A stretch of DNA of 40,770 bases, from positions 1 through 40,770 of the IMG/VR virus record IMGVR_UViG_3300025526_000005; one strand, written 5' to 3'. The translations under genes were made by a program, and so were the position numbers. Every line of letters starts with the position of its first letter. Within the stretch, counting starts at the first letter, position 1. Below, one piece after another: positions 407 through 35,736 of the stretch. The stretch is from a virus. The notes under the pieces are model-generated. The model ran no database searches, was not told the origin of the DNA, and saw only the letters and a list, made by a program, of their open reading frames with translations.

Positions 407-3400
407 TTAGAGCAGTATCGCCTGAAGCATGGCGGTATCGTCGCCCAGGATCGGCTCAATGCCCTCGGATCGTTGCGATCCACCCATGCAACTGTTGCCG
501 GAGATGTCCCGTCCGATCGCGAACACGCTTCGGCCTAAGGGTGCCGTGCTGATGGTTCCTCCGCTGCCGAGGAATTCGCACGAGACTGAGTTCTCGCCGA
601 TGTCGTCCTCGAAGAAGAGGTAGCCGCCATCCGGATCGATCCAATAGCCGGTCTGAAGCAAACAGTGGCTGGCGTCTCCGATATCGGCCACGTTACGGAC
701 CTGCTTCCGTTCCTCGAAGATGGTGCGGATGCCAATGAGCGATCCCTGGAGGCTGACGATCGCGCCGCCATCAGTCCCGAAACCGGACTGCCAGGCAGGT
801 GGCAGGGCATGCCAGGCATCGGAATCGACCATGGCCCAGCGCCAGTCGGAGTCGCCGCGGGAGGTTTGCAAGAGCCATGCATCGCCGCTGCACGCATCAT
901 TCGAGATGGATGCGCCGACCACACTGGAAGCGGTGGATGCATCTTCCCAGTCACCCATTGTATCCGCTCCCGCGTTTTTCGGTGTCCCCTCGTAATAGCC
1001 TTTCGGCTGGCCACCGGTGGCACACGTCGGCGCCGGGGAAGGCCAGGTCGCATCGACCTCCGCGATCGCACTGCCGCTCCGCGATCGCACCTGGAATTGC
1101 TGCGGGAGCATGATCTGGACCCGATCCAATTGGTTCAGGCAACTGCCGACCTGGTTGTAGCACTCGGACGAGAGCGAGAGCGCGGGTGCCTGACCGAATC
1201 CTTCCGGGGCGTCCGGGCGCACCTGGTCGAGGTGCGGAGTCGGGACTGTGGCGATGGAAGTGAGCCATTTCAGGCCGTGCGACTGAAAGCAGAGCGACTC
1301 AAAAGTGTAACAAAAGACTGCGGAGACACCGAACGTGCAGGCCTGCTCTTTCGTGGTCTGGGCATCGACAAATCCTTCGCACATGCCGCGCAGGTAGAAA
1401 TCGGCCTGCATCCACCATTCTGACGTGAGGGGCGTATCGTGGGCGTCCTGACGGTTGTTGCCGTCCTCGTAGGGCTTCTTGAATAGCTGCAGGAAGTAAA
1501 AGTGTGGGAAGCACGCGCCATGCGGATTGTCCGGCAGGCCCCAGACATCTGTGTCGGTGTTCTGCACGTAAGAGGAGTTTCCTTGCTGGCCCAAGTTGTG
1601 GCCCAAGACCAGGTCGTAGCCGCCCCCGACGCAATGCAGCCCGCGCTCCTGCAGGATGAGGTACTCGCGCAGGGCGTTTTCCATGGTGCGGTAATCTTCC
1701 GCTTGCAGAGCAGCGGCATCCCAAGTGTCGGTATTGCGATCCAGGCTGGCTGGAGCGGCGTCGTGATGATGGAAGCGCCCCTTGAAGGTGAGCTTGATGA
1801 CGGTCACGCCGAACTCGATATCCTCGACGGCCGATTCAATTTCCGGCATCGGCTCGTAGATGCGGCAGCTTTTGTACCGGGCGATACGTCGCGCCTGGCA
1901 GTCCAGATCCTCCTCATCACAGAGCCAGCGGTTCGTGTTGCCGGCGTAGCGCCAGCCGCTGAATGCTTCCGGGGCTACCGAGACGTTTTGGCCGTAATCA
2001 AATTGCCGTTTCAGACCGGCGTTGTAGCCCACCAGGCCATGGTAAAAGTGGCAGCGATCGCTCCAGAAATGGTAATCCGAGTAAGCGTCCGGCTTCCAAA
2101 TGCTTTCGTCCTGATGGCCGTAGACCTTGAGCTGCGTGCCCATGAGCCATTCATTCGTGAACTGGCCCGGATCGGCCAAGGCCCGAATGCCATCCCGGAC
2201 ATAGACCGTTCCGGCGCCGGTGAAGGTCGCGGCCGTCGCCGTGAAGGTGGCGTCCTGGGGAATGGTGTCGCCATCGTGGGTTATCGTTCCGCCGCGGACG
2301 ACGTATTCCCGGCCGATCACCAACGTCTCGATCGGCGTACGGCTCGGGCCGATCCCCTGGAACTGGTCCAGCTCCACGCCGCTGACGGCCACGAAGCGCT
2401 TGAACCAGCACACGGTCTTGCCGTCTTCCACTGCGTAGCCCAGGAACGCCGCGCGCGGCAGCACGCGCACGAATTGGCTCAGCCGCCGGGCCGCGTCAAA
2501 GACGGCATTGGAATTTACCTCACCGGTGAAGCTCCCGGCCGGCCCCGGTGCATCGTGCGTGTTGAGAATCGCGCCGGTGGTGAAATAGGATTCCCCGAGC
2601 TGGTCGGAGTCGCTTTCGTCCTGGCCGGAACCATCGAGCCCGCTTACGAGCGTAGTGCGGGCGCTGGCCAGGCGCAGGACCAGGTAGAGGTCATGATGCT
2701 GCGGTTGATAATTCAGGAGCTCGGAACATTCCACGCGGATCTCGCCTGCGTCCGAGAGAAATTCCGCCCCCCCCGGCAATTGCACGCGCAGGTTTGGCGC
2801 GAGGATGGCCGGTTCGAAAATGATGATTTGCGGCGCGAGCCCATCCTCATCTGGCGTGACCGTGACCGTCTTGAGCAGGGTTGATCCGGACCAAAACTCG
2901 ACCGGGCACGGGGCGGCCAGTTCCGCGACCGTCAGGAGCGCCGAGGCCAGAACGAATTCCCCTTGGTATTGGTGCGCGGGCGTGCCGGATTGCAGGTGCG
3001 TCAGAATCGTCGCGGCCGGGAGAGAGGTATCTGGATCGCACTCGGCCAGGTAAAGCGGGTAAACCGGGTCGATTTCATCGCCTGAGATTTGGCCCATGTT
3101 CGGCGCGAGATGGTATTGGCTGGTCAGGAAACGCTCCCGATCGAAGGCGAATTCCAGCCACTTTTCCTGCGTGTCCCGCTCCGAGGCTGTGCCGCGAAAA
3201 TCGTGCGTGAAGGCATTCAGGAATCGTGGCAGGTGATCGCCCCAATTGCGCTTGATCGATGCGCCGCCGCTGTATGGTCCCTCGATCCATTCATCGATCG
3301 GCAGGATCTCCACTGACCCGTTGTTGAACCAGACCAGGTACCAGCGCGGCGTTTTGACTACCTGCGCGATGTGGCCAGGCTGCTCCGGACAAGTGCCCGG

Positions 3401-4066
3401 ATAAGCCCGGATCTCACCGGTATAAAGGTTCGTGAAAAAGATCTGGTAATCAGGGATCTCGCCATTCTCGCAATCCGCCAGATCGACCGGGACCGCCATG
3501 AACCCGCCATAGCTATTCCCGTGCGGCGAGAGGTTGTTCGTGCGAATCCGGTAATGGGTCACGGCCGCGCTGAAGGCCGGGGAAGCGAGCACCAGGTTGG
3601 GACTGATCGCGCCGCGTTGCACCTTGCCCAGAGCCCAGATGGCCTCCGGTTCCGTGGGCACTCCCGACATCCCGTAAAGCTCCACGCCGCCCGCTGCCGG
3701 ATTGGCGATCCGCTCATCCTCACTGGCCAGACCGATCGCGTCCGCGCCGAAGACGAATGAGTTGATGATGCAGGCGAGATTCGCCCCCTCGGGTTCACCA
3801 GGGCCAGCTAAAGGCCAGGTGCCTTCATCCGCCTTGAGGTTTTGGTAGAAGTGGAAGAATTCCGTCTGCGGCGGGAAGAGGAAACCGCCATCCGAATTGC
3901 GGATCTGGCGGAACGGGCTGATGCCGTAGTAAACGACCCGCTCGCAGCTATCCCCGGCGTTGCACCGCAACCGATCGTTGAAGGCGTCCGCGACCTTCGC
4001 CAGTTGCGTGCTCGTGACCGGATCGCCCGGCGCGACCGGCGGCACTTTGGTCCAGGTGAGGGCCAC
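407..4066 (-). CDS. Large tail protein (probable central fibre/baseplate-type)
   Basis: 1219 residues from a GTG start (ATG is absent nearby; the preceding gene ends 15 bp upstream). It is the largest protein of the window. It is rich in aromatic residues, glycine and cysteine and has no signal peptide or transmembrane segment. The N-terminal ~35 residues resemble the short N-terminal segments of particle-bound phage proteins. I recognise no catalytic domain and no typical fibronectin or beta-helix repeats. Its place at the distal end of the tail module, after tape measure and minor tail genes, fits a tail-tip or receptor-contact protein. The many cysteines (for example CNAGDSC and C-rich pairs near residues 720-730) are unusual for a cytoplasmic phage protein and may form disulfides or bind metal in the virion. 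Confidence 0.75.
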   Translation of the reverse strand: MALTWTKVPPVAPGDPVTSTQLAKVADAFNDRLRCNAGDSCERVVYYGISPFRQIRNSDGGFLFPPQTEFFHFYQNLKADEGTWPLAGPGEPEGANLACIINSFVFGADAIGLASEDERIANPAAGGVELYGMSGVPTEPEAIWALGKVQRGAISPNLVLASPAFSAAVTHYRIRTNNLSPHGNSYGGFMAVPVDLADCENGEIPDYQIFFTNLYTGEIRAYPGTCPEQPGHIAQVVKTPRWYLVWFNNGSVEILPIDEWIEGPYSGGASIKRNWGDHLPRFLNAFTHDFRGTASERDTQEKWLEFAFDRERFLTSQYHLAPNMGQISGDEIDPVYPLYLAECDPDTSLPAATILTHLQSGTPAHQYQGEFVLASALLTVAELAAPCPVEFWSGSTLLKTVTVTPDEDGLAPQIIIFEPAILAPNLRVQLPGGAEFLSDAGEIRVECSELLNYQPQHHDLYLVLRLASARTTLVSGLDGSGQDESDSDQLGESYFTTGAILNTHDAPGPAGSFTGEVNSNAVFDAARRLSQFVRVLPRAAFLGYAVEDGKTVCWFKRFVAVSGVELDQFQGIGPSRTPIETLVIGREYVVRGGTITHDGDTIPQDATFTATAATFTGAGTVYVRDGIRALADPGQFTNEWLMGTQLKVYGHQDESIWKPDAYSDYHFWSDRCHFYHGLVGYNAGLKRQFDYGQNVSVAPEAFSGWRYAGNTNRWLCDEEDLDCQARRIARYKSCRIYEPMPEIESAVEDIEFGVTVIKLTFKGRFHHHDAAPASLDRNTDTWDAAALQAEDYRTMENALREYLILQERGLHCVGGGYDLVLGHNLGQQGNSSYVQNTDTDVWGLPDNPHGACFPHFYFLQLFKKPYEDGNNRQDAHDTPLTSEWWMQADFYLRGMCEGFVDAQTTKEQACTFGVSAVFCYTFESLCFQSHGLKWLTSIATVPTPHLDQVRPDAPEGFGQAPALSLSSECYNQVGSCLNQLDRVQIMLPQQFQVRSRSGSAIAEVDATWPSPAPTCATGGQPKGYYEGTPKNAGADTMGDWEDASTASSVVGASISNDACSGDAWLLQTSRGDSDWRWAMVDSDAWHALPPAWQSGFGTDGGAIVSLQGSLIGIRTIFEERKQVRNVADIGDASHCLLQTGYWIDPDGGYLFFEDDIGENSVSCEFLGSGGTISTAPLGRSVFAIGRDISGNSCMGGSQRSEGIEPILGDDTAMLQAILL

Positions 4067-4642: not shown

Positions 4643-5421
4643 GCTCCGTACTGGTCGTGGACGAATGTGTTAAGGGGCGCTGCCCCGATATACCACCATT
4701 CCTGGTTGATCTCCCAAGTTGTGGAGGTCAAAGGCTCGACTGTGGGAAATTTCTTCATCCACCAGCCAGGCTGAACGTCAAACAGGATGCGCTCAGGGGT
4801 AAGAGGACCGCCTGTGCTCGGGTCGTTTCCCCCCACGAGATTTTCGGCGAGAATTACTCCATCCACGCCGGTAAAGTTGGGGCGCACTCTCGAACCAGTA
4901 GGGACGATCATCTTGCGCCGAATGGCTCCGCCAGAGATCGGCTTGCTTTCCACGCCGAGCTGGATGGATCGAAGCAAGTTGCCAATCACTAATTTCCCGG
5001 CAGTGTCGAATGGAATAGTGGCGATGAACTCGGCGTAATCCAGCTCGTCACTGATGACTTTTTCAGCATCGCGCCGGAGAGCGATCACCACATCGACCGG
5101 AGCGCTGGCAAGTACGCTGTAAACCTTCGGGATATCCCAGATGTTTTTTTCTGTCTCGATGGGTGCCAGGCTGAAGATGTCCGCCATCGGAGTATCCCGA
5201 TCGACGGACTCTGTCCCGCCGATGTAAATGCGGATCTCCTGGTATCCACCCTCAGACATCTCGACGACTTCATAGCGAAGGCCGAGAGACCGGGCCGCGT
5301 TCGCTTGCAGGAGAATATTTGTCGGCGTGCCGCGATAACGGCGTACAACTGAAACTCCTGTCCGCTGGTCGTAAGCGTACTCGTCTGCGAGCTGCGTGAA
5401 ATTGCCGCCGTAAAAACTCAT
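4639..5421 (-). CDS. Probable tail protein downstream of tape measure
   Basis: 260 residues, ATG overlapping the tape-measure stop (ATGA). Mixed alpha/beta composition, no signal peptide, no recognised catalytic motif. The ending is aromatic, with WWYIGAAPLN near the C-terminus. The gene directly after a tape measure usually encodes a distal-tail or baseplate-hub protein, and I infer that role here from position only. The stretch from about 4.6 to 7.3 kb looks less GC-rich and less biased in codon third positions than the head genes, which suggests the tail module has a separate origin. Confidence 0.65.
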   Translation of the reverse strand: MSFYGGNFTQLADEYAYDQRTGVSVVRRYRGTPTNILLQANAARSLGLRYEVVEMSEGGYQEIRIYIGGTESVDRDTPMADIFSLAPIETEKNIWDIPKVYSVLASAPVDVVIALRRDAEKVISDELDYAEFIATIPFDTAGKLVIGNLLRSIQLGVESKPISGGAIRRKMIVPTGSRVRPNFTGVDGVILAENLVGGNDPSTGGPLTPERILFDVQPGWWMKKFPTVEPLTSTTWEINQEWWYIGAAPLNTFVHDQYGA

Positions 5422-10060: not shown

Positions 10061-10606
10061 TTATTCCGTCGCGCGATCGCTGGTTTCCTCGGTTACTCGA
10101 TCCGCGCTTTCTTCCGTGATCCGATCCGATTCATGATCCGTTTGCAGGATGGTGAACACCTGCATTTCCAAGGTCCAAATGACGCGGGCGTGTTCCTGAT
10201 CCACTTCGGTCATATCGAGGCGCGCGAAATAGACCGTGCTGAAGACATCCGGATCGGGCGACCAGGGCCGATCCCACAACGCCTTGGCCAACATCAACAG
10301 TTGCAACCCGGTTAATTTGGATTCGCTTTCTTCCCGCGCCCGATTGATCGGCACGATTTCGTGCGCCTGCGCGGAGACCGTGATCATGACCGATCCCTGG
10401 TAGGCGCCTTGTTCCGCTGGAACCACACCGGTGATCGCCACCACCAGCGCTAGTCCGAGCTTGGCCAGGGAATTGTCGACTTCCGCGAGCAGGTCCATGC
10501 TGTTCTCCGGCACGGCGCGCACGCCGCTCTCCGGATCGCTGAACACGGTGTCCTGTTCGAGTCGGGCCACCAGCGCCGCCAGTAGATCGTCGAGGACTGT
10601 GGCCAT
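10061..10606 (-). CDS. Mu gp37-like head-tail joining/tail-completion protein
   Basis: 181 residues. Its ATG overlaps the upstream stop as TAATG. It begins with a helix (VLDDLLAALVARLEQD), then a hydrophobic beta segment (LGLALVVAITGVVPAEQGAYQGSV) and later an alpha/beta part. Size, fold pattern and place right after the gp36-like gene match the Mu gp37-type proteins at the head-tail junction. The last ~25 residues are a short tandem repeat: DRITEESA, DRVTEETS, DRATE. This looks like a recently expanded acidic tail. Assignment by gene order and pattern. Confidence 0.65.
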   Translation of the reverse strand: MATVLDDLLAALVARLEQDTVFSDPESGVRAVPENSMDLLAEVDNSLAKLGLALVVAITGVVPAEQGAYQGSVMITVSAQAHEIVPINRAREESESKLTGLQLLMLAKALWDRPWSPDPDVFSTVYFARLDMTEVDQEHARVIWTLEMQVFTILQTDHESDRITEESADRVTEETSDRATE

Positions 10607-11040
10607 TAGAAGTTGAGTTGCTCATCACTGCCGTAGCGGGCATCCGATCCCGCGTGTTCCGTCTCATCCGCCGGATCGGGTTGTTCGATGGCGAATTCGC
10701 CTTTGGGAATTTCTTTGACCGTGGCCCAGGCGGAGTCGTGTTCGGCTTTGCGTTGCTCGCTGGCGCTCATCGCGCCACTTGTGCCGATGGAGATCCGGCC
10801 GATCATCCTCCAGCGGACGATGGCAATGGCCGCGTCATGAATTTCCGGCGGGAGCGTGCCCGCCGCGCCGAGGCTATACCGCACCGCGATATAGCCTCGG
10901 ATCGCATTGGTGACCTTGGAGATGATCTCCGACGTCGGATCGGTTTGACCCGACGCCAGGACCTTCGTGCGCAGCAGCGTCAGTTCATCCCCGCTCAAGC
11001 GGGTCTGCACGTCTTCGACGGTTAATGCTGCCCAGGCCAT
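10606..11040 (-). CDS. Mu gp36-like head-tail connector (DUF1320)
   Basis: 144 residues, ATG start, 8 bp after the capsid gene. The N-terminal sequence (ALTVEDVQTRLSGDELTLL) and the following helix with TDPTSEIISKVTNAIRGYIAVRYSLG fit the gp36/DUF1320 family of Mu-like phages. These are gp6-type adaptors that attach below the portal after DNA packaging. The Asp/Glu-rich tail (EQPDPADETEHAGSDARYG) is variable in such proteins. Gene order (capsid, gp36, gp37) is the same as in Mu. Confidence 0.8.
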   Translation of the reverse strand: MAWAALTVEDVQTRLSGDELTLLRTKVLASGQTDPTSEIISKVTNAIRGYIAVRYSLGAAGTLPPEIHDAAIAIVRWRMIGRISIGTSGAMSASEQRKAEHDSAWATVKEIPKGEFAIEQPDPADETEHAGSDARYGSDEQLNF

Positions 11041-11048
11041 GTGTTCGT

Positions 11049-13529
11049 TTATGCCGTGGCCGTGTTGACCAAACGTTGGCCCGCCGCGGGATCACCTACC
11101 GCTGTCCCATACATGAAGGCGTAGCGCGAAGCCGCTTCCGCCTTTACATGATCGACGTATTGCACGTTCAGCAGCGAGATTCCGGTGTTCGGTTCCGTGA
11201 TGATTTTGGTCACCGCGCCGCCGTTCACGCCGGGCAGAATCTTCGTGTAGTCATCCGGCAGCCGGGTCGCCAGAGCCAGGGCGCTCGGGAAGCAGGCGAA
11301 GCCTTGCAGGTTCTCGACCACCGGCAGGATCTTTGCATCCGCCACGCCGAACCCATGCACGTCCGGCAGCACGCCGCTCTGGATCACGTCGGACGCGCCC
11401 GGATTATTGAAGGCGCTGACAATCACGGTATCCTCGCCCAGCTTGTCGTAGTAATCGCCGCGCAGGATCAACATGCGCATCACGTCCGGCACCTCGCGAT
11501 CAGTGAGGGCGCGTCCCAGCTTCATCACGCCCGTGCGCGAGAAGTTAGCCAGTGTCACAACCGTTTCGTTTGTGATCGGGTTCGCGGTTGGATAGGTCGC
11601 GGTCTTCGGGAAGTTCGCCACCAGGATGTTTCCATAGAGCGCGGTCACCAGGGCCTTGCCGAGCACGTAGGCCTGGAGCGGCGCTTGTTCCTCGAAGAGC
11701 CTGCGATTCGTCGAACCCAGTTCCTCGGTGTTGAAAGCGATTTCGATCGCTTTGTGATTGTTCAACGTGATCGTCGCTTGCGTCACGGTCGCGTTGCTCC
11801 GGCTGTAGCCCGTGCCAGCGACATAGCTGGTCAACGCGGGAGGCGCGACCAGGTTCACCTTCACGGTGTTATTCCAGAGCGCCGTCTCCCCGCTCAGATT
11901 CGCGCTGATCCTCTGCAGCTGCGGGAAAGTCGTCATGAGCAGCTCCAGCACGCGCTGTGTCACTACATCGCCCGCCAGAGTGCTGAGCGAGTTCGACGCA
12001 TGGACCGGCACTCTCGCCGCCATCTGTGTGTTCAACACCAGCGGGAAGGCCTCCTTCTTCCGCAGCCGCGGGCTGATGTCGGAAGCGTAGATGGCCGCGC
12101 GAGCCTTGGCGTCCTCGATCGCGCCCCGCCCCTTCTCGTCACGAGCGCTGGCGTAGGCCAGCAATACCTGTTGCGAATCTTCCCGTGTGATTGTCACGCT
12201 GGCGTGCAGCGCGTCATTGTCCCGCGCCCCGCTGGCCGCCGTGATCGGCGTGAGCGCCGGATTGCCCTGCATGCTCGCGAGCAACACTTCCTTCGTCGGA
12301 TCGGAGGCAAGGATCTCTTCCCATTGCGCCTGGATGGCCGTGTCTTTCGGAGGCAAGGCCCCGCGCTTCACAGCGGCGAGCACCGCTGCTTTGGCCGTGG
12401 CCAGGTTGCGGGCTTTGATTTCCCCCTGCACTTTCGCAAGGGCCTGATTCAGCTGCTTGATCTCTTCGTCTTTCGCTTCGATCGTGGCTGTGTTGGCAGA
12501 GTTGGCCTGTTGAGCCCTTAACTCCGCGTTTTCATTCTCCAATTTAGCTAACCGGGCCTGGAGTGCGGCCAACTCTTCTGTTGTCATACTTTGGTTGGCG
12601 CCTTCGCTGGCCTGCTTGGCCCACAAAGGCGAAATCTTCTTGAACGCCGGATTATTCACGAGCGATCCCATGTTCAGCGGCGCGCCGGTCACCTTGGCTG
12701 GATTCGCTGTCGGATCGTCCACATGGAACCCCGGCGAGAAGGCGCGATACATTTTTCCCGTGATGGCGTCTGATCCGGCTTTGCTCCATTCCACGCGAGC
12801 GTAGACGCCCAAAGGCCGGTCGCCGCCGCGCCACACGAATTCGAGCGGCCAGGCGCTGGCCTGCCCGCCGTTATGATCGAAATCGAAGTAGGGCCGTTGC
12901 GGACCCGCCGCAAGATGTTCGCGGAGCGATCGCTGCAACGCCGCGGCGGAATCCGGACCGACCTGCACCGTCACCGTCACCGGCTTCCCGCCCTGGCTGG
13001 CGGTGATCTGATGCACGCCGCCCGGCATGACCATCACTTCACTCGGCGGTTGCGCGCCCTCGGCCGCCTCCGGCAAGGCAATCGGCATCCGGCATTCGAT
13101 CGTGGTCGGGTCATGCGCGTAAAAGGCCTCTCGGGTTTGGGAATGGGAAGTGCGAGAGTGGCCGTCCGAGACGGAACTGCTCACTTCGAAGATTGAGATC
13201 TGCCCCTTTCGGGAATAGCCTTTCTCATCCTCATACCGATTGAGCCGGGCCAGCGCGGATCGCCCCTGCTCATCCATCCCATTCATGAACACAAGCGAAT
13301 CGTTCGCCTCCAGATTCTGATTCAGTCCGTTGACCACACCGAAGCGCTCCCGCTTCAGCCAGCCTTTGCCGTCGCAGACCAGGCAACCGGCGCTGTCCAG
13401 ATCCGTCGACGTGAGTCGGAACCCTGAGCAGCGATGGCAAAATACCTGTCCGTTTTCCAGCTTCACTCGCTGCTTGTGAGCGATCGCATCCAGGATGCGT
13501 TTGTCTTCTGTGGTCAATCTCAGTCTCAT
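11049..13529 (-). CDS. Fused zinc ribbon, prohead protease, scaffold and major capsid protein
   Basis: 826 residues; the start (ATG at 13529) is the first one after the gpG stop. Four regions are visible. Residues 28-52: a zinc-ribbon-like pair (CHRC...CLVC). Residues ~133-306: Mu gpI-type protease/scaffold domain with PYFDFDHNGGQASAW, VYARVEWSKAG, YRAFSPGF and LNMGSLVNNPAF. Residues ~315-378: scaffold coiled coil (ALQARLAKLENENAELRAQ). Residues ~480-826: HK97/P22-like major capsid domain with ATITLNNHKAIEIAFNTEEL. In Mu the protease/scaffold (I, Z) and capsid (T) are separate genes; here they form one frame without stops. Self-cleavage probably frees the capsid domain. Neighbours gpG and gp36 support the role. 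Confidence 0.9.
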   Translation of the reverse strand: MRLRLTTEDKRILDAIAHKQRVKLENGQVFCHRCSGFRLTSTDLDSAGCLVCDGKGWLKRERFGVVNGLNQNLEANDSLVFMNGMDEQGRSALARLNRYEDEKGYSRKGQISIFEVSSSVSDGHSRTSHSQTREAFYAHDPTTIECRMPIALPEAAEGAQPPSEVMVMPGGVHQITASQGGKPVTVTVQVGPDSAAALQRSLREHLAAGPQRPYFDFDHNGGQASAWPLEFVWRGGDRPLGVYARVEWSKAGSDAITGKMYRAFSPGFHVDDPTANPAKVTGAPLNMGSLVNNPAFKKISPLWAKQASEGANQSMTTEELAALQARLAKLENENAELRAQQANSANTATIEAKDEEIKQLNQALAKVQGEIKARNLATAKAAVLAAVKRGALPPKDTAIQAQWEEILASDPTKEVLLASMQGNPALTPITAASGARDNDALHASVTITREDSQQVLLAYASARDEKGRGAIEDAKARAAIYASDISPRLRKKEAFPLVLNTQMAARVPVHASNSLSTLAGDVVTQRVLELLMTTFPQLQRISANLSGETALWNNTVKVNLVAPPALTSYVAGTGYSRSNATVTQATITLNNHKAIEIAFNTEELGSTNRRLFEEQAPLQAYVLGKALVTALYGNILVANFPKTATYPTANPITNETVVTLANFSRTGVMKLGRALTDREVPDVMRMLILRGDYYDKLGEDTVIVSAFNNPGASDVIQSGVLPDVHGFGVADAKILPVVENLQGFACFPSALALATRLPDDYTKILPGVNGGAVTKIITEPNTGISLLNVQYVDHVKAEAASRYAFMYGTAVGDPAAGQRLVNTATA

Positions 13530-13534
13530 AGAAA

Positions 13535-14113
13535 TCAATTCGTTGCCGGTCCGGCCATCCACTTGTTGAATGTCTCGCTGACTACGCGCTGCATCTCTTC
13601 GCGCGGCGGCAGAGCGGTTGCGTCCGGCTTTTGCGTGACCGATCGGGCCAGCGCGTAATAGACCGTGAGTTTCTTGGCGTCCTTGTCCCACGCGGCCAGG
13701 ACGTTCTTCACTCGAAACAGCTTCAGCCCGAGCGTTCGCTCCAACACGCTGACGCGACGGCCATGCGCCGCCGGATGAATCGGGATCGTCAGAAACTTCC
13801 CGCGCTTGGCCGTGATTGTTCCGCCGTGGATCTTCTGATTGATCGCCGGATGCGTGATCGAGATGGCCACGCTCTCCGGCCCCGTCTGCTTCGGCGCATT
13901 CACGCCCTGGCTCACCCCGAGCCAGAAGAATGTGCGCGATCCGCCCAGCTTGTTCGGCGCTTGCGACTTCGCCCGGAAATGGCTCTTGAGCAGATTCCCC
14001 AGCGCTCGCGCCGCGACATTCAATCCGCTCGTCACACTGCGCGCTCGCGCTTGTAACCCCGCCAGCGCCGGCCGCGCTGTGTCCTTCACGACTTGCACTT
14101 CCAGCGTTGTCAT
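13535..14113 (-). CDS. Mu gpG-like virion morphogenesis protein
   Basis: 192 residues; the ATG overlaps the portal stop (CATG with TGA). The N-terminal segment (VVKDTARPALAGLQARARS) and the order portal-gpG-protease are those of the phage virion morphogenesis (gpG) family, needed for tail completion and head stability in Mu. It also contains FFWLGVSQGVNAP, AISITHPAINQKIHGGTI and a C-terminal helix, all common in that family. No catalytic role is expected. Confidence 0.8.
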   Translation of the reverse strand: MTTLEVQVVKDTARPALAGLQARARSVTSGLNVAARALGNLLKSHFRAKSQAPNKLGGSRTFFWLGVSQGVNAPKQTGPESVAISITHPAINQKIHGGTITAKRGKFLTIPIHPAAHGRRVSVLERTLGLKLFRVKNVLAAWDKDAKKLTVYYALARSVTQKPDATALPPREEMQRVVSETFNKWMAGPATN

Positions 14114-15894
14114 GCGGACCTCGCTTTCTGCCGTTGCGCGACCTTACCCCGCCGCTCCATGTAACCTTTGATCGCCCCATTCACGCACGCCGCGCCCATG
14201 GCCGCTTCTAAGGCTTCCGCCAGCGCATCGTGATTCATCTTGGCGAACAGTTCCGGCATCTCGGCCCGCGCCTGATCGACCAGCCGCACGAACTCCGCAT
14301 CGCTCAGCGTCGCATCCTTGGCCTTAGCGAATAGCTCGCGGAAAAACGGTTTGATGCCCCCGAGCCATTTTGCCTCGACCCCGGTCAAGTTCTCCAGCGC
14401 CGCATCAATCACCTGGTCCGTCGCGCTCTTCGCGTGAATGGCGTGGCTGCAAGAAGGAGAGTGGCTCTGGAATCGCTGAAATCCCTCAGGGCCGCCCGGT
14501 CCCGTTTCTGGCATGGCCCCGCGTTCGATCACCGATTCGCCCTCTTCGGGTTCCGGGACGTTATGCCGTTCGTGCGCGTAGCTGAGCGGGATCTTCATCC
14601 CCATTTCCACCAGTTTCGCGTCGCGTTCCGCCAACGCCATCGGGTCCGGATCAATCGAGAGATCCGCGCAGACCTCGGGCGCTTCGTCCGATGATCCGTA
14701 ATTCAGCCGAAGCAACGGACCGACTAATTGATACGAGACCAGGTCACCCACCCAGGCGGCCGCGTTGTGCAACACGTCCTGGCGCACCTTGCCCTGCAAC
14801 GTGGCGTTCCCGCTGCCGAGGCCGCTCGCTTCGCTCTCACTGCTCAGCTCCTGGCCGAGAATCAACAAGTCGCACGCCTTCTTGGCCTGCTCCAAAATCA
14901 AAGCCTGCGGATTATCCCGCGCGCTCGTCACCGCCTCCTTGAAATCGAGTGTTGTGCCCGCCGGGAACGCCGCCCAACCGGTCGAGCCCATCGCTTCCAA
15001 CATCTCCGCAATCGTCGAGGCCAGCCCTGGGCTGGAATCATCGTAAGTGGCCCAGCGAAATGGTACCCCGAACAACTGCGCGGTCTGCATCAACCAGCGC
15101 CAGCCGTAAGTGTGACCGATCCAGTAGGGAACCAATGCCCGCAACAAAGCGGTCGCTCCCGGAATTCCCGATCGCGCCTTCCAGGTCCCAACAACAAATT
15201 GATCCGCCGCAAATTCCCGCCACACCTGGCGTTCGGAGGGCCGAGCTCCGCGAGTCCCATTTTGCTGCGTGACAATCAACCCCAACTCCGTCCCGCTCGC
15301 GTTCCACGCGTATTGGCGCGGCGTGAGCAGGTGCGCCGCGCGCGGCACGATCACTCCGCCGCGTTGTTGCCAGAGCACTTCCTGCACCGAGATCCCTTTG
15401 CCCAGTGCGTCGAGACCGTCATAGATAAACTCCTCGAACGAACTTTCCAGCGTGCCCGGTCGCGGCTCCCAGTTTTTCAGCGCGGCCTCGACCAGGTCCG
15501 CTTTCTCCTGGGCGCGCGGAGTCGGCTTCTCACCGCGCTCAGCGTAAGGGGTGACACTCCAGCGCAATCGCTTCACCGAGTTCTTCACCTCATTGAGGTT
15601 TTTCGCGAGCCGATCCCACTCCTCCATGCGCGCGAAGAGTTCCCACTGCGAATAGAGATCCCCATTGAGCGCCATCTCCAGGATCTGCTTCACATAGTCC
15701 GGCTTCGCCGGAGTCATGAGCAAACCGAGTTGATGTGACTCGATCTTCGCCGCCATCTGTTGCGGCAACGATCGCAGAACATTCCGGGCCGGAGTCGCTT
15801 GCACCGGCGCGCTCGCCGTCGCTGTCGTTATGGCCCCGATCGGGTCATTCCACACCCGAGGCAAACCGGACACTGGATGGATCAATCCTCTCAC
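14110..15894 (-). CDS. Portal protein, Mu gp29 type (DUF935)
   Basis: 594 residues from a GTG that overlaps the preceding stop (GTGA). Family features in order are DPIGAITTATA near the N-terminus, a MEEWDRLAKNLNEVKNSV region, GKGISVQEVLWQ, FVVGTWKARSGIPGA, LVPYWIGHTYGWRWLM, QTAQLFGVPFRWATYD and ILGQELSSES. These are typical of gp29/DUF935 portals, the dodecameric DNA gate of the head. The C-terminal ~110 residues (EAKWLGGIKPFFRELFAKA) form an extra helical tail seen in this family. A 24-bp palindromic element lies inside the gene (15235-15258) and encodes GTRGARPSE. The gene stands directly between terminase and gpG as in Mu. Confidence 0.9.
   Translation of the reverse strand: MRGLIHPVSGLPRVWNDPIGAITTATASAPVQATPARNVLRSLPQQMAAKIESHQLGLLMTPAKPDYVKQILEMALNGDLYSQWELFARMEEWDRLAKNLNEVKNSVKRLRWSVTPYAERGEKPTPRAQEKADLVEAALKNWEPRPGTLESSFEEFIYDGLDALGKGISVQEVLWQQRGGVIVPRAAHLLTPRQYAWNASGTELGLIVTQQNGTRGARPSERQVWREFAADQFVVGTWKARSGIPGATALLRALVPYWIGHTYGWRWLMQTAQLFGVPFRWATYDDSSPGLASTIAEMLEAMGSTGWAAFPAGTTLDFKEAVTSARDNPQALILEQAKKACDLLILGQELSSESEASGLGSGNATLQGKVRQDVLHNAAAWVGDLVSYQLVGPLLRLNYGSSDEAPEVCADLSIDPDPMALAERDAKLVEMGMKIPLSYAHERHNVPEPEEGESVIERGAMPETGPGGPEGFQRFQSHSPSCSHAIHAKSATDQVIDAALENLTGVEAKWLGGIKPFFRELFAKAKDATLSDAEFVRLVDQARAEMPELFAKMNHDALAEALEAAMGAACVNGAIKGYMERRGKVAQRQKARSA
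15235..15258 (+). repeat. Dispersed palindromic element, copy in portal gene
   Basis: 24 bases, one mismatch to the family core GGAGGGACGAGCTCCGCG + AGTCCC. Lies in-frame in the portal gene (read on the minus strand as GTRGARPSE) in a probably surface-exposed loop. Confidence 0.75.
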
Positions 15895-18352: not shown

Positions 18353-19897
18353 TTACCGCCTCACTCCCCGAGTCCGTTTCACCGGAGTCGCCGAATGCAC
18401 GACCGGGGAGCTCAGCGGCTCGAAAGCACCAATCGCCCATAGCGCAGGCCGCGTGGTGCCATTCATGTCCGTTGTGAAATAAGCCGACAGATCCACACCC
18501 ACCCCAATCGCCGGGCTGCCGGTCTGAGGAACGTAATTCGCATCTAATGAGGGATTGCTACTTAGACCGTGCGCATCATATCCGAGCGCCTGCCATTGAG
18601 CGAAATTCTTGAAACTACTGCTACCGGTCGTTGACTTGGAGTAAGCCTGACCCGAAACGAGATCATAGCCGAGGTTGTAGTCGATGTTCAGCGTCTCCGT
18701 TGTCGTGCCGGAGTAGGTAATGTTGATCGCGTTCTTCCGGGTGATCAGATTGTTTTTGAGGTTGTGCGTCCCGCCGCGTTGCAGGTTGAGTCCAATGCCA
18801 ATGCCGCTCCCGCTTCCAATGACAGTGTTGTTGTAAACGTGCGTAATCACTCCGTATCCAGCCCACAGGAAAATGTCCCCATTCGATGGGGCGCTCGTCT
18901 CTTCCAGGAAAAGGTTGTTGTCGATGGTAATCGGCCCGACTGCGCCCACGCCTGAGATGAACACCCCGGAGGTAGCTTGGTTCGGGGACGTGATCGTGAA
19001 GTCAGGCCCGATAATATTTCGCGAAATCGACAACGTCTGGAGCTTGCCTCCGCTCTCCGCCCAACAGTAGATTCCGTTGTGATGGAGTATCGCCTGGCTT
19101 GCGGCATCCGTTCCGTCCCAGTTAGAGAAGTGGGATATGTCATTCCCGTATATGGCAAGGTTGTAGTTGGTGCTGTTCGAGTCTCTATCCCCGGTGCGGA
19201 TTCCCCAATTCACATAAGCAATCGTGTTACTCCGAAAGGTATTGTCATGAGTCACCCCGGAGTAATCCGTATCGATGCCCGTCGACGCGTGATAAACCTT
19301 GCAATTCTCGACCGTAAAAAAGCTGTAAGCCGTTCCGTTCTTGCAGGTGTTCTGGATCGCTGTCGCGCCAGTCCGGTTCGTGCCTGCCACCCGAATGTAG
19401 AGATTCGTGAACACGCAATTTCGGATCGTGCTGCGGCTCACGCTGGTAAAATTCACCGCCGTCCACCCGTTCGTGTAGGCCAGTCCATCCCCGTTGCCCA
19501 CCCCCTCGAACCAGAGGCCATCCAGATCGACGTAAGATTGACCAAAATTCCGGATCGCCCCGCCATCGTAGTTGTTTGGTGTGCCCGTGGAGAAATACGG
19601 TGCGCTAAACTTCGAACCACCCACGTCCTGCTTAACCGTGATAACATTTCCGGAGCTTCCCGCTCCAAGAATATTCAACGTGTTCGTGATCGTTCCGACC
19701 AGGATCAGATTATCCCCAGCGCTAATTTTCCCTGCTCCACTTCCCCAGTTGCCGGAGGTGTTAGCCCAAGCCAGAGACTTAGCATTTGCGGCACTCGCTC
19801 CCGTGTCTGCGCCGAGAGCTATTTGCGCAACGTAAAGATCTTCGGCAAAGGTTGTCCACACCAAGAGCAGAATCAGAAATAGTGCAGTGATCTTCAT
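18353..19897 (-). CDS. Secreted right-handed beta-helix protein
   Basis: 514 residues; the ATG overlaps the upstream stop as TAATG. A clear Sec signal peptide (MKITALFLILLLVWTTFA, cleavage likely after A18) precedes a parallel beta-helix with rungs such as STIRNCVFTNLYI, VENCKVYH, NTFRSNTIAYVN, TIDNNLFLE and NNLITRKN. Near the C-terminus is the phrase RPALWAIGAFEP, common in choice-of-anchor and beta-helix secreted proteins ('D.GAfE'). It could be a polysaccharide lyase or adhesin exported by the lysogen, or a spike. A signal peptide on a virion spike would be unusual. Adjacent gene 19897-21108 also carries one. Confidence 0.8.
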   Translation of the reverse strand: MKITALFLILLLVWTTFAEDLYVAQIALGADTGASAANAKSLAWANTSGNWGSGAGKISAGDNLILVGTITNTLNILGAGSSGNVITVKQDVGGSKFSAPYFSTGTPNNYDGGAIRNFGQSYVDLDGLWFEGVGNGDGLAYTNGWTAVNFTSVSRSTIRNCVFTNLYIRVAGTNRTGATAIQNTCKNGTAYSFFTVENCKVYHASTGIDTDYSGVTHDNTFRSNTIAYVNWGIRTGDRDSNSTNYNLAIYGNDISHFSNWDGTDAASQAILHHNGIYCWAESGGKLQTLSISRNIIGPDFTITSPNQATSGVFISGVGAVGPITIDNNLFLEETSAPSNGDIFLWAGYGVITHVYNNTVIGSGSGIGIGLNLQRGGTHNLKNNLITRKNAINITYSGTTTETLNIDYNLGYDLVSGQAYSKSTTGSSSFKNFAQWQALGYDAHGLSSNPSLDANYVPQTGSPAIGVGVDLSAYFTTDMNGTTRPALWAIGAFEPLSSPVVHSATPVKRTRGVRR

Positions 19898-21108
19898 TAA
19901 CGCACCCGCCGACCACTGAGTGATCCCCACCCTTTAAAAGTTCCAGAAGAAAATGTGGCTCGCCCGACCAAATACACGGTCGCATTGGTGGTAGTGCTAA
20001 TCCGAGTTGTGGGAAGGGTGAGAGCGTGAGTTCCAGGAGGGGACCAGTAAATTGCCGAGTTGTAGACCTCGTTACCTGTCGTCCCCATCGTAGTTGCTGA
20101 GGTTAAAGAAATAACGGAAACGAATCCATAAGACCCGGTTGAGGCCCCTGTTGAAGAAAAATTAGAAACTCCAGAAAAATCCCAGTCTCCTGGAGTAATT
20201 GCTATCGTAGCTATGTTTGCAGAAGTGGCTGTCGTCAAAGCGACCCCAGCAGCCAGCGTGACCGGAGATGACAGATACTCGCCAACATAACCAGTCGTAG
20301 CATCGCTGCCATCCGTCACGCCGAGCGCCGGCCATCCGCCCCCGCCGCCAGCCGCGCCCCACACTAGATCCGCTCCCGGCCCTTGAGACTTTAGAGAATA
20401 CCCGCTCGTCCCCGCTGCCAGCCGCACCCAGGCTGAGCTATTGCGATAGAGAATATCTCCTTGCGCCGCGCTCCCGACCCAATCCAATAGTTGCGAGAGC
20501 GTCACCAACTCCGCCGCTCCAGCCCCGGCCGTGTTGCGGCCCAGCAATCGTTGAGTGGTGCCGATCTCAATCTGGTCCGAACCCATCCGCGCTGTGTCCT
20601 GGTCGATGCTCCAGATCCCGCCCTGGCGCTTCAGGTAAATCTCATTGGTGCCAGTGCTCAACGATCCAGTGAGCCCTTTCCATCGGAGCGCATCCGTGAC
20701 GTTCGTGAGCGTGCCCGCGCCTGGCATCACGATCGTGATTAGAATATTTCGCTCGATGTTCGTGTCCGTGATTGAATTCGTCCCGAAGGCAAACCGGCAC
20801 GAAGCCGTGGGAAACCAGATGTAAGAATCGTAAGCCGGATCAATCACCACGTTCGTGCCGGTCCCCAGGGGAATCGTCGCGCGCGTGAACTGCCCAGACT
20901 GGATGGAGGTCAATCCGGTCGAGATGCTTTGCTTGATCAGCGACCAGGGCACTTTGTTATTAGCCAGGCCGTCCGCCGCCTCCGTGAAGAGCAAGTCCCC
21001 GTCCGCCAGGCTGGTCGCGGCGCTGTATTCGCTCACCTTCTTGCTCGCCGCAAAAAGTCCGGCCACCAGCGCGAAGGTCGCTAGAATCGTTAGAATAGGT
21101 CTCTTCAT
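19897..21108 (-). CDS. Signal-peptide-bearing fibre-like protein
   Basis: 403 residues; start at ATG 21108, six bases after the preceding stop. N-terminal signal peptide (MKRPILTILATFALVAGLFA), then SEYSAATSLADGDLLFTEA and NNKVPWSLIKQS, which resemble the repeated head-fibre/tail-fibre adhesion phrase. The rest is Thr/Ser/Gly-rich beta sequence with ATGTSGYSLKSQGPGADLVWGAA, a pattern found in long fibre stalks and caps. So the protein looks like a phage fibre but has an export signal. It may be a surface protein of the lysogen or a fibre assembled outside the cytoplasm. Confidence 0.7.
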   Translation of the reverse strand: MKRPILTILATFALVAGLFAASKKVSEYSAATSLADGDLLFTEAADGLANNKVPWSLIKQSISTGLTSIQSGQFTRATIPLGTGTNVVIDPAYDSYIWFPTASCRFAFGTNSITDTNIERNILITIVMPGAGTLTNVTDALRWKGLTGSLSTGTNEIYLKRQGGIWSIDQDTARMGSDQIEIGTTQRLLGRNTAGAGAAELVTLSQLLDWVGSAAQGDILYRNSSAWVRLAAGTSGYSLKSQGPGADLVWGAAGGGGGWPALGVTDGSDATTGYVGEYLSSPVTLAAGVALTTATSANIATIAITPGDWDFSGVSNFSSTGASTGSYGFVSVISLTSATTMGTTGNEVYNSAIYWSPPGTHALTLPTTRISTTTNATVYLVGRATFSSGTFKGWGSLSGRRVR

Positions 21109-27452: not shown

Positions 27453-27520
27453 CTTTTATGACCGACCTCATCCAAGTTTCGCCGTCATTCACGAAGGAGG
27501 CCAAGGAGTCCATTCTATGA
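27449..27520 (+). CDS. Possible leader peptide coupled to the transposase
   Basis: A 23-residue frame (MTFMTDLIQVSPSFTKEAKE...) whose TGA overlaps the transposase ATG (ATGA). AGGGAA precedes its start and an AAGGAG lies inside it, eight to nine bases before the transposase ATG. Such a short coupled frame could tune transposase synthesis. It may equally be chance; nothing but spacing supports it. Confidence 0.3.
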   Translation: MTFMTDLIQVSPSFTKEAKESIL

Positions 27521-29625
27521 CGTTAACCAGCCCAGCAATTTGCCTTTCCGATCGGAGGGACGAGTTCCACGAGTCCCCAGAGTGCGAATCGCACAATCCC
27601 GCGCCGCGCGCGGCTCTCTCAAATTTCGTGTCCGGTATGGTGTCGGTATTAAGCTCCGACCAGGCCAGCAGTGTTAGCGAGATTAGGATCAGCGAGGGAT
27701 TGTCCGCCCTCGCCTCATTGGGTTCTGTTGCGCCGCATGAATCGCCGGATACGAATTCAATCATTGGGAGCGGTCAAGGGACCAGCTCCAACCAGGGGGC
27801 GGCCTACGACGAAACTGGCGTAGCGAACCGCCCCCCAATTTCCGAATCCTCATCCCTGCGCCTGGCGCGCAAACAAACGCTCTGGCATCGCTACCAAGAC
27901 CTCGTGGGGCAGGGGTTGAGCCAGGCGCAAGCCGCCACGCGTCTCGGCGCGTCCAACGCCATGCTCTCGCGCATGAGCGCGATCGTGCGCGAGCAGGGGA
28001 TCGAAGGCCTCGCCGACAAATACCACCAGAGCGGCCGCAAACCGAAACTCATTCTCACACCCGAAGAGGAAGCGCGGCTCCAGGCGCTCTTCCTGAAGAC
28101 CAATCGCCATGCCGAGGGCGGCTCCATGCAGACCGCTTGCAAGTTCTTTGCACTCGATCCGCAAACCCGCGAGGAAGTGAGCACCGCCATTCTTTCCCAG
28201 CAGGAGAAAGGGCTCCTGCCCATGTTCGCTATGAAATGCCTCCGGCAAATCACCAAAGCGCACTTTGCTGCTCATCGCAAGCCCGGCAAGCTCGCGGCGG
28301 ATCATTTCGCGGGCCGCGTCGGCGCATTCTCCAAGGATAAGTTTGAGCGCCGTCGCGCGGTCGAGTCCGACGATGCCACTCTCAACTTCCCGGCTTGGAT
28401 TCCCTGGCCGCAAGGGGGCGATCCGGTGAGCGACAAATACGGCGTAAAGCTGGGCCGCTGGCAATTCCTCCCGGCGATCGAAGCGGGCTGGTCGCAATAT
28501 TATCTCGGCTATTCCCTGGTCGCGCGCCCGCGCGGTTCCTACACGCAAGAGGATGTGCGCGGCGTGATCTCCATGGTCGCTCGCCACCACGGTTTGCCGG
28601 ATGAGTTTCGGTTCGAGCGCGGCATTTGGGAGAGCGATTCCGTGGTGGAATTACTCCGATCGCTCGGCGTGGAACTCAACACCGTTTGGCAATCGAACCA
28701 AAAGCCCTTCGTCGAAGGCGGGCTCTCCACACTCTGGACCTACCTGAGCATGGTCGATGGGCAAGTCGGCCGATTCCAGGGCGAAATGGAGAAGGCCAAC
28801 CTGGATGTGGAACGTTGCCGGGCGGGCCGACTCGATCCGCGCGAAGTCTTCCCGAGCCTCACCGCCACGCACGCCGCGCTCAAGGGCGCTCTGGCCATGC
28901 GCAATTCCGATCGGCGCCAGTCTAAAACGTACGGCTCCTGGATTCCCGAAGTGCGCTATCGCGAGCAGGCGCAGGAGAAGCCCTGGCGTCCGCTCCCGCC
29001 GGAATTGAATTATCTCTTCGCGCCGATCGTGCGCGAATGGACCGTGCAGAAAGGCACCGTGGGGAACAGCGTCTCCCTGACCGAAGATCTCAAGGCTCCC
29101 TTCTACTTTTTCCACGAAGAACTCTGGCGCTCGAACGGCCAGAAGGTGCGCGTCTATTTCGATCCGGCCGCGCCGCAATGCACCGCCACCATTGTGTGCG
29201 TCACCCCGCACCTCTGCTGGAAGCCCGGCCAGATCATGCATCAAGCAACTCTCCTGGGAGAAATCCCGCACTTCACCCGCGCAGCAATGGGATGGCAAGA
29301 CCCCGCCAGCACAATCACCCCAGCCCCTGGAATGCGCGGGCCTCTTTCCGCTGTCCGCCGCGAAGTCCGCGCGCTCGCTCCGGGCGGCCGCGTGATCAGC
29401 ACCGCCAGCGAAGAACGCGATGGCCACGGCACCGTGAACCGCATTGAGCATTCCTCCCCTGGCAAACCCTCGGAGGGACAATCTCCGCGAGTCCCACAAA
29501 TTAAAGCGCCCGCCCGCCCGCGCTCGACCGCGCCGATCGATCCGGACGAAGAAACCATTTCCCTTACTTCCACCGATCGCCATGCAGCGCTCGCGGAAGA
29601 CGACGAAGAAACCATCAACCTCTAA
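27517..29625 (+). CDS. muA: Mu-type DDE transposase (MuA homologue)
   Basis: 702 residues. Start ATG 27517 has AAGGAG at the right distance. Residues 1-110 are Ser-rich and disordered; the enhancer-binding domain of MuA is not recognisable. Residues ~115-180 form a helix-turn-helix (LSQAQAATRLGASNAMLSRM). The RNase H-like core follows, with first acid D285/D286 in ESDDATLNF, then FRFERGIWES where Glu367 stands at the second acid position, and the last acid Glu400 in KPFVEGG. A beta-barrel domain follows (~500-565). The acidic tail repeats DEETISL (678-683) and DEETINL (696-702). It binds the end repeats and joins phage ends to target DNA with MuB. Two palindromic elements lie in the N- and C-terminal disordered parts. 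Confidence 0.92.
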   Translation: MTLTSPAICLSDRRDEFHESPECESHNPAPRAALSNFVSGMVSVLSSDQASSVSEIRISEGLSALASLGSVAPHESPDTNSIIGSGQGTSSNQGAAYDETGVANRPPISESSSLRLARKQTLWHRYQDLVGQGLSQAQAATRLGASNAMLSRMSAIVREQGIEGLADKYHQSGRKPKLILTPEEEARLQALFLKTNRHAEGGSMQTACKFFALDPQTREEVSTAILSQQEKGLLPMFAMKCLRQITKAHFAAHRKPGKLAADHFAGRVGAFSKDKFERRRAVESDDATLNFPAWIPWPQGGDPVSDKYGVKLGRWQFLPAIEAGWSQYYLGYSLVARPRGSYTQEDVRGVISMVARHHGLPDEFRFERGIWESDSVVELLRSLGVELNTVWQSNQKPFVEGGLSTLWTYLSMVDGQVGRFQGEMEKANLDVERCRAGRLDPREVFPSLTATHAALKGALAMRNSDRRQSKTYGSWIPEVRYREQAQEKPWRPLPPELNYLFAPIVREWTVQKGTVGNSVSLTEDLKAPFYFFHEELWRSNGQKVRVYFDPAAPQCTATIVCVTPHLCWKPGQIMHQATLLGEIPHFTRAAMGWQDPASTITPAPGMRGPLSAVRREVRALAPGGRVISTASEERDGHGTVNRIEHSSPGKPSEGQSPRVPQIKAPARPRSTAPIDPDEETISLTSTDRHAALAEDDEETINL
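27554..27577 (+). repeat. Dispersed palindromic element, copy in muA 5' part
   Basis: Two mismatches to the family core; codes for RRDEFHESP in the disordered N-terminal part of the transposase, in a different frame from the other copies. Confidence 0.65.
29472..29495 (+). repeat. Dispersed palindromic element, copy in muA 3' part
   Basis: Two mismatches to the core; codes for EGQSPRVP in the disordered C-terminal part, the same frame as the gemA copy. Confidence 0.7.
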
Positions 29626-29630
29626 AAGCC

Positions 29631-30812
29631 ATGGAAGCAACCAACCGACTCAACACCAACGGCAGCCGCACGGAACGCGATCCCATTCTGGACGGGCCGG
29701 AGCCCGCGAGAGATTCCGAAGCCCCCGAGCCTCCGCGCAACTCTGCGGCCGTGAACGCGCACCAATCCCGCTGGCGCATTCCCGGAGATGTCATTGCCCG
29801 GACCTGCAAGGACCTGACCGAAGAGCAGCGGCACGCGATTAATTGGGCGCACTCCTATTGCCGCTCGAAGAACCTGAGTCACGAAGACCTGGCCAAGCAA
29901 CTGCGCAAAAGTCCGGATAGCGAAGAGACCTATTCCGGCGACAGCGTCTATCAAACGTTCACCGGCCGGCGTGATAACGTCGCGCCCCTCTGCCAGGCTA
30001 TTCACGTCTTGCGCCGCCGCGTCGAGGAAACCTGCGCGCGGGCGGGCGTGGCCTTTGTCGAAACGTCCCTCTCGAAAAAGATTTTCGCCCATTGCCGACG
30101 CACCTTCAATCGCAAGGCTATCACCTTCATCCTTGGCGCCACCCGCATTGGCAAGACTCGGACCCTGGAAGAATACGCGCGCCAGCACAATCACGGCGAA
30201 ACCAAAATGATCCGCCTGCCGAGCGGCGGGAGCATCCGCGTTTTCCTGGTCGAATGCGCGATCGTCCTCGGGATCTCCACACAGTGCAAAAGCTTCGAAT
30301 TGCGTCGCCGCATTTTCGAGTGCTTCGATGAGCGCACCCTCCTAATCGTCGATGAGTGCGAAGAGGGCATGGTCAATCAGGAGATCCTCAATTTCATCCG
30401 CGAGCTTTGGGATCGGCGCAAATGCGGTGTCGTCTTCAGCGGAGCCATGAACCTGCGCGATGCCCCGCGGAGCAGTTATAACATGAAGAAGCTTTGCGAG
30501 CGCGGCATTCGCCCCCTCATCCTGCCGTCCGTTCCGCCTGCGGGAGACCTCGATAAATTCGCCGAAGCCTTCGGGTTAACCCCCGCGCCGAACGTCGAGA
30601 AACGCTTCAAGTTCCGTGATGAAGATGGAGTCGAGGAGTCTCTCAAAGGCAACCCTCAGGAAATCCAGAATAAGGTCATCCGCGACCATAGCCTCGGCCG
30701 CTGGCTCGCCATCCTGGAAGACGCCGCTGACACCGCCAAGGAAAGCCAAAGCCACATCTCGTGGAACCGCGTCATTGTCGCCTACGAACTCTTCAGCAAG
30801 GGGGGCATGTGA
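29631..30812 (+). CDS. muB: MuB/TniB-type AAA+ target-DNA ATPase
   Basis: 393 residues, ATG five bases after the transposase stop. The first ~45 residues are acidic/Pro-rich. Residues 60-125 form a helical DNA-binding-type domain like that of MuB. The AAA+ core has Walker A GATRIGKT (169-176), Walker B LLIVDE (237-242) and sensor-1 region VVFSGAMN (267-274). The C-terminal helical part resembles MuB's. It should polymerise on target DNA, stimulate the transposase and give target immunity. Gene order A-B is as in Mu. Confidence 0.92.
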   Translation: MEATNRLNTNGSRTERDPILDGPEPARDSEAPEPPRNSAAVNAHQSRWRIPGDVIARTCKDLTEEQRHAINWAHSYCRSKNLSHEDLAKQLRKSPDSEETYSGDSVYQTFTGRRDNVAPLCQAIHVLRRRVEETCARAGVAFVETSLSKKIFAHCRRTFNRKAITFILGATRIGKTRTLEEYARQHNHGETKMIRLPSGGSIRVFLVECAIVLGISTQCKSFELRRRIFECFDERTLLIVDECEEGMVNQEILNFIRELWDRRKCGVVFSGAMNLRDAPRSSYNMKKLCERGIRPLILPSVPPAGDLDKFAEAFGLTPAPNVEKRFKFRDEDGVEESLKGNPQEIQNKVIRDHSLGRWLAILEDAADTAKESQSHISWNRVIVAYELFSKGGM

Positions 30813-33339: not shown

Positions 33340-33939
33340 ATGACTACAGCCCAACAACGCCGCCTCTACTTCCCCGCCTGGACCGCCGCCGCCCGCAACC
33401 ACGGCTGGCACAAACCGGAGGGACGAGCTCCGCGAGTCCCCTTCTTCGGCAACCCCGAACTCAACGATCTCTACCAACGCATTTGCACCATCGCCACCGA
33501 GCGCGCCGCCACTCCCCAATCCGACGATTATCGCCACGCCTGCCACATCGTCGCATTCGGTGCAGATAAATCCTCCAGCTCACTGACCAACAAAGAACTC
33601 GATCGCATCCTCGCCCTGTTCAAGCTGCTCGCCGATCCCGACGACCTCAACGCGACGCTCGCCTGGAACAACCCGCAGGAAGAACAACGCAAGCGCCTCC
33701 TCTGGTGGTTGCGCAACAAATGCGTCGAGAGCTACATCGTCCAGGTCTGCCGCGAGAAATTCGCCACCGACAATTGGGAAGCCCTCGACTTCCCCGAGCT
33801 GAGCAAGCTCCACATGACCCTGAAGAACCGCGCGCGCGCCCTGAAACCATGCCCTCCTACTCTTACTCCTCATCCTACTCCGGCCCCCTTCGTGAACGTA
33901 AACCGCGAAATGGAACTCGCCGAACCCGAACCGTTTTGA
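33340..33939 (+). CDS. gemA: GemA-like regulatory protein (DUF1018)
   Basis: 199 residues from ATG 33340. The N-terminus MTTAQQRRLYFPAWTAAAR and the second block with RLLWWLRNKCVESYIVQVC, DNWEALDFPELSKL and TLKNRARA resemble the two conserved blocks of the Mu gp16/GemA family. Those proteins alter host gene expression and superhelicity in Mu. A perfect copy of the 24-bp palindromic element (33417-33440) encodes EGRAPRVP between the blocks. The stop overlaps the next ATG. Confidence 0.65.
   Translation: MTTAQQRRLYFPAWTAAARNHGWHKPEGRAPRVPFFGNPELNDLYQRICTIATERAATPQSDDYRHACHIVAFGADKSSSSLTNKELDRILALFKLLADPDDLNATLAWNNPQEEQRKRLLWWLRNKCVESYIVQVCREKFATDNWEALDFPELSKLHMTLKNRARALKPCPPTLTPHPTPAPFVNVNREMELAEPEPF
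33417..33440 (+). repeat. Dispersed palindromic element, best copy (gemA)
   Basis: Exact core GGAGGGACGAGCTCCGCG + AGTCCC; used here as the reference. Codes for EGRAPRVP between two conserved blocks of the GemA-like protein. Confidence 0.8.
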
Positions 33940-35227: not shown

Positions 35228-35728
35228 ATGACTCTTACCGCCGCCAGAAAGCTCGCCGAACGCATCCAGGAGGAACTCGCTCCCCTGTGTCACGAGTGCG
35301 TGATTGCCGGGTCGATCCGCCGCCGTTGCTCCGTGGTCAATGATATCGACCTGGTCATCATTCCCCAGGACCAATACACTGTGCGCGCGCGCGTCCTGCG
35401 CAACGCCACGCCCATCCAGGATGGCCCGGTCAATCTCCTGGTCCGCCTGCAAAACGATATCCAGCTCGATATTTTCTTCGCCCGGCCGGCCACGCAGGAT
35501 CTGCTCGATAAACGGCCCACCAACCTCGGCAGCCTGATGCTGTGCCGCACCGGCAGCCGCGAGCACAATATCAAGCTCGCCACCCGCGCCGAAACCCTCG
35601 GCCTGAAATGGAGAATCTACGAAGGCCTGGTCGACCTCGAATCCGGCCTGCTCGTCGCCAGCGTCACCGAGGAAGATATGTTCCGCGCCCTCAAAATGGA
35701 TTTCATCAAACCGGAGGATCGCAAGTAG
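35228..35728 (+). CDS. Family-X DNA polymerase-like nucleotidyltransferase
   Basis: 166 residues, ATG directly after the preceding TAA. The palm domain has VIAGSIRRRC (GS at 28-29), VVNDIDLVI (D39, D41) and IQLDIFFA (D81), the three metal-binding acids of the Pol beta superfamily. Then GSLMLCRTGSREHNIKLATR and AETLGLKWRIYEGL match the thumb of PolX enzymes. The 8-kDa and fingers domains are missing; cellular PolX proteins are 330-580 residues. It could fill gaps left after transposition or act as a nucleotidyl transferase on other substrates. All catalytic residues are present. Confidence 0.88.
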   Translation: MTLTAARKLAERIQEELAPLCHECVIAGSIRRRCSVVNDIDLVIIPQDQYTVRARVLRNATPIQDGPVNLLVRLQNDIQLDIFFARPATQDLLDKRPTNLGSLMLCRTGSREHNIKLATRAETLGLKWRIYEGLVDLESGLLVASVTEEDMFRALKMDFIKPEDRK

Positions 35729-35736
35729 CGCACCCA

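Follow-up and report, generated by a model that had tools for sequence, protein, structure and literature searches.

The locus described here raises the question of how a phage can encode its head protease, scaffold and major capsid protein in one open reading frame, and whether such a gene must deliver protease and capsid in equal amounts. It was analysed within a metagenomic virus record of 40,770 bases, a single record, which is referred to below as the window.

Organization of the fused head gene

Translation of the minus strand, a strand that the earlier note left unnamed, from 13529 down to 11049 revealed a single frame of 826 codons plus stop, without an internal stop. The same frame stays open upstream as far as 14180; this stretch overlaps a separate gene with homologues (13535-14113), and its codon-position composition there looks non-coding. 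A Mu-like protease domain occupies approximately codons 160-300 (12630..13052, minus strand). It was recognized by PF10123, the Mu-like prophage I protein family (E 1.9e-14, residues 165-395), with a score of 54.4 bits, above the curated cut-off of 25.2, and the region also matches PHROG 328. Residues H219 and S265 are candidate catalytic residues, as H and S at these positions are invariant in all 17 aligned proteases. Comparison of the protease-domain model with PDB structures gave no convincing match. A coiled-coil segment between the protease and capsid domains represents the scaffold (codons 315-487; 12069..12587, minus strand), which is mostly helical in the modelled secondary structure and aligns with the C-terminal part of the protease genes of relatives with split genes. 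The major capsid domain (codons 512-826; 11052..11996, minus strand) matches PHROG 283, a major head protein family, over residues 512-739 (E 8.3e-15). The predicted model of the fused protein is good in parts only (mean pLDDT 64.8); within it, residues 514-826 are modelled with an HK97 fold, aligning with the P22 procapsid protein over 272 residues (Z 17.2, rmsd 3.5) and with T7 (Z 15.0). The fused profile found no match below E 0.097 among the sequences of solved structures, and NCBIfam returned nothing useful for the gene. The earlier note had read the locus as one 826-codon polypeptide carrying protease, scaffold and capsid, and this was borne out by the translation, by PF10123 and PHROG 283, and by 14 further fusions.

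The join between protease/scaffold and capsid lies at about residues 488-511. Where relatives have a separate protease gene, its product closes with a DPxKRxxFYAK-like stretch, aligns with the fused protein to about residue 487 and stops where the linker of the fused proteins begins; the separate capsid proteins begin at about residue 512. A P[VI]xA[AS]N motif between scaffold and capsid is kept in most fused rows of the alignment. In the window it reads PVHASNSL (codons 508-515; 11985..12008, minus strand), at the point where split capsids start, and is a candidate cleavage site.

The N-terminal extension (codons 1-147; 13089..13529, minus strand) has a coding-like codon-position composition and contains CxxC pairs at residues 31-34 and 49-52, which may bind zinc. 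It had been claimed that a zinc ribbon stands ahead of the protease; the CxxC pairs are indeed there, but they fall outside the conserved architecture. The ribbon found no relative in phages (best E 0.1), in viral contigs, or in 16 genomes, the last in a search without a positive control. Since most fused relatives' proteins begin near the protease, and since the ATG of codon 148 (13086..13088, minus strand) is the least structured of all in-frame ATGs in the window gene, the ribbon may be either a private extension of this phage or part of a longer minor form, and the protease form may start at codon 148. The fused relative L027 has a short N-terminal extension of another kind (4845-4994), in which a motif around EFPDEAQRSAVCYRQW contains cysteine; it gave no match in Pfam.

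Phage context

The fused gene is flanked on the same strand by a Mu gp36-like head-tail adaptor (10606..11040; PF07030) and, on the other side, by a gene with homologues in L098, L102, L106 and L107 (13535..14113), followed by a Mu-type portal (14110..15894; PF06074, E 1.8e-68). The plus strand carries a MuA-like transposase (27517-29625) and a MuB-like ATPase (29631-30812), a pair matched by PHROGs 310 and 296, one or the other for each, together with a Gam-like protein (PHROG 491). With this transposase and ATPase and a Mu-type head module, the window is a Mu-like transposable phage. It is related to prophages of Verrucomicrobiota; the portal, used as a query against viral contigs, found no relatives. 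The window also holds C5-cytosine and D12 adenine DNA methyltransferases (33705-35009 and 35542-36567), and two long frames, 18353-19930 (525 residues) and 407-4066 (1219 residues), gave no Pfam or PHROG match at the cut-offs used.

Distribution of the fusion

The protease-scaffold-capsid fusion was found in 15 genes, counting that of the window; the other 14 all come from Verrucomicrobiota genomes. A scan of genome contigs yielded five protease relatives, three of which have protease and capsid in one frame, all three from Verrucomicrobiota. A search of 387 Verrucomicrobiota genomes added two fused genes, and searches of two orders of this phylum (322 and 320 genomes) added nine. Identity among the 15 is mostly low, with the closest pair at 88% and the fourth closest at 62%; L120, L121 and L125 are close kin, so the genes are not fully independent.

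Phylogenetic trees were built with the six fused genes known at that point, leaving out the nine found later. The capsid tree, of 25 rows, places the six fused capsids in a single clade with support of 96/92, and in the protease tree the six group together, but without support (33/30). In more distant relatives, protease/scaffold and capsid are encoded by two genes. Among the split capsids, the nearest are those of L071, which adjoins an S49 protease, and L072, which adjoins a Mu-like protease, and the capsid has therefore changed protease partners.

Several other loci were observed around this family. Stand-alone capsid genes near the fused family occur in Verrucomicrobiota (L128 2101-3159, L129 5698-6855, L130 4292-5410, L131 289-1326 and L133 3243-4361), each with a short propeptide resembling the scaffold end. 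No frame matching the protease profile was found in the 4-9 kb examined around them, and a similar-looking small protein lies downstream of the capsid in L128 and L130; these loci could be defective prophages or domesticated shells. Several BFVD structure matches are long proteins that bear the name of prohead protease or capsid (656 and 733 aa in two instances) and may be other fusions. Finally, L101 (6463-10533) encodes a 1356-residue protein with a Mu-like protease domain near its N-terminus and an inorganic pyrophosphatase domain (PF18823).

A conserved internal ATG at the protease/scaffold junction

As had been claimed, the peptide MTTEELAAL begins at residue 315, and its ATG (12585..12587, minus strand) is the proposed start of a scaffold-capsid product. 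An in-frame ATG occupies this junction in every one of the 15 fused genes. It lies 12-35 codons past the conserved LVNxPAF motif in 14 of them and at +57 in the fifteenth; the mean chance of an ATG in that range is 0.32 per gene, and the minimum distance of 12 codons from the motif was introduced once early ATGs had been seen within the conserved protease stretch of four genes. A wider set comprised 27 non-redundant protease frames; an in-frame ATG no more than 90 codons from the domain end was present in 26, the exception being the short frame L086. L075 is a long protein of another kind, and its ATG does not lie at a scaffold.

The leader of the junction ATG is depleted in G. Over the seven codons before the ATG, the 15 fused genes have 12 third-position G against 35.9 expected (z -6.05) and 21 third-position A against 5.8 expected. 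When other in-frame ATGs were drawn from each gene, none of 5000 draws was as G-low as the junction ATG. At offsets more than 15 codons from the ATG the lowest z was -4.15, at +20; this minimum may still belong to the end of the open stretch at the ATG. In addition, the junction ATG is the most structure-free in-frame ATG in 13 of the 15 genes and the second in L125 and the window, where it ranks behind codon 148. The first six fused genes, taken without the distance rule and with the first ATG after the domain, gave one third-position G, where the codon use of the respective genes predicts 13.7; of 430 offsets in these genes, the twelve lowest scores all fall between -2 and +9 codons of the ATG.

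In the window, the 21-base leader (12588..12608, minus strand) lacks third-position G (about two expected) and folds weakly. It contains six G in all, the highest number among the 15 together with L122, and no Shine-Dalgarno sequence was seen at the normal distance from ATG 315. Relatives' separate capsid genes provide a comparison, since such genes need a real start: 15 of the 20 with a full leader have at most two G in the 21 bases before their ATG. Among 19 split relatives, third-position G before the junction ATG was 17 against 36.9 expected, and six of them have 7-9 G before it. Taken together, the fused genes have a conserved internal ATG with a translation-start-like leader. The comparison gives strong support to the suggestion of internal initiation at codon 315, which is plausible because the fused family conserves both this ATG and the open leader ahead of it.

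A proposed two-start model for the head gene

The equivalents of Mu I/Z and T are joined in one frame, and the gene probably works from two starts, giving a protease-scaffold-capsid chain in minor amounts and a scaffold-capsid chain as the main product, both of which are then cleaved. Ribosomes starting at the upstream ATG would make the minor chain, and those starting at the internal ATG would make the more abundant one, which would resemble HK97 gp5. The shared capsid domain would let both chains co-assemble into one procapsid, where the protease would cut near residue 511, removing scaffold and protease and leaving a mature capsid protein of about 315 residues. How the product ratio leads on to co-assembly and cleavage is our inference. 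Two starts would let the protease be a minority component, while with one start the shell would have to hold and clear the protease and scaffold of every subunit; Mu heads are described as having 415 capsid proteins (PMC11915804). Protease and capsid need not be made in equal amounts, which the earlier note had expected unless internal starts are used.

The frame could in principle be an assembly or sequencing artefact that joined two genes, as the window is one metagenomic virus record. This is hardly credible: the fusion is neither chance nor read error, because 14 other genomes carry the same protease-scaffold-capsid arrangement, and for that part the artefact is refuted. An artefact could still affect the N-terminal extension, which was seen in a single gene. 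The earlier note had named sequencing error and relatives with split genes as grounds for refutation; the former is excluded for the protease-scaffold-capsid part, and the latter do exist, but they are more distant and leave the fusion standing.

The internal ATG invites two further explanations. If it were never used, every coat subunit would bear its own protease and scaffold, all removed at maturation, and the Met would be the scaffold's first residue kept from a split ancestor. Thaumarchaeal proviruses are reported to have protease-capsid fusions for which no internal start is described (PMC6563490), and the linker contains many T, N, Q and P residues, the codons of which are poor in G. 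Third-position G is, however, depleted beyond the amino-acid constraint and the ATG is unusually structure-free, for which amino-acid choice cannot account; we regard this explanation as unlikely. It is also quite improbable that the start merely survives from the scaffold gene of the split ancestor and is now barely used. The same ATG is present in most split relatives, but the fused genes, at high divergence, show a depletion (1 against 13.0 expected, six genes) no weaker than that of the split ones.

Within the two-start reading, a more specific and tentative proposal, somewhat short of probable, is that the ratio of the two co-terminal coat proteins is set by the openness of the Shine-Dalgarno-less internal start, with scaffold-capsid in the majority; the protease-bearing minority would bring the maturation enzyme into the shell, and a third, longer form from codon 1 would add the zinc ribbon. 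Separate genes usually determine how much protease a procapsid receives; here a single gene with two starts would set that dose, so that protease stoichiometry would become testable through one codon change.

Comparison with known systems

The phage of the window shares related portal, gp36 and transposition genes with Mu. In Mu, too, the protease is of the Mu-like family and the scaffold lies in frame in its C-terminal half, with the capsid next; the Mu scaffold has an internal start, as is proposed for the window, and the annotation of the Mu record places Z within I, with its start at codon 179. The nested in-frame arrangement recurs in KS10 28/29, where the scaffold is reported to be embedded within the protease (PMC2628397). 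The difference is that Mu has separate protease/scaffold and capsid genes, whereas in the window all lie in one frame and the nested product would also carry the capsid. Protease and capsid are likewise separate genes in Akkermansia phage Chantilly, which has a related protease, and in Verrucomicrobia phage P8625, which has a related capsid. Corynephage BFK20 was considered as a fused protease-capsid case and rejected, as its record has separate genes.

A fusion of protease and capsid is already known from the thaumarchaeal proviruses Nvie-Pro1 and NCAV2-Pro1, in which a protease domain is joined to the major capsid protein (PMC6563490). As far as the accessible text goes, the protease there is chymotrypsin-like or a typical caudoviral prohead protease, in contrast to the Mu-like PF10123 protease of the window, and an internal start is not mentioned. 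These were the only protease-capsid fusions found in a limited literature search, which gave no internal start in such a fusion and is no proof of absence in either respect. Nor did that search show a Mu-type protease in such a fusion, kept across a diverse family with a conserved internal start.

The scaffold-capsid half of the arrangement is known from HK97, where gp5 is described as having a scaffold domain covalently joined to the N-terminus of an HK97-fold capsid protein (PMC10275583), which shows that such a scaffold works. The HK97 protease is a separate gene, whereas that of the window lies upstream in the same frame. The fused gene would unite the scaffold strategies of Mu and HK97 in one molecule.
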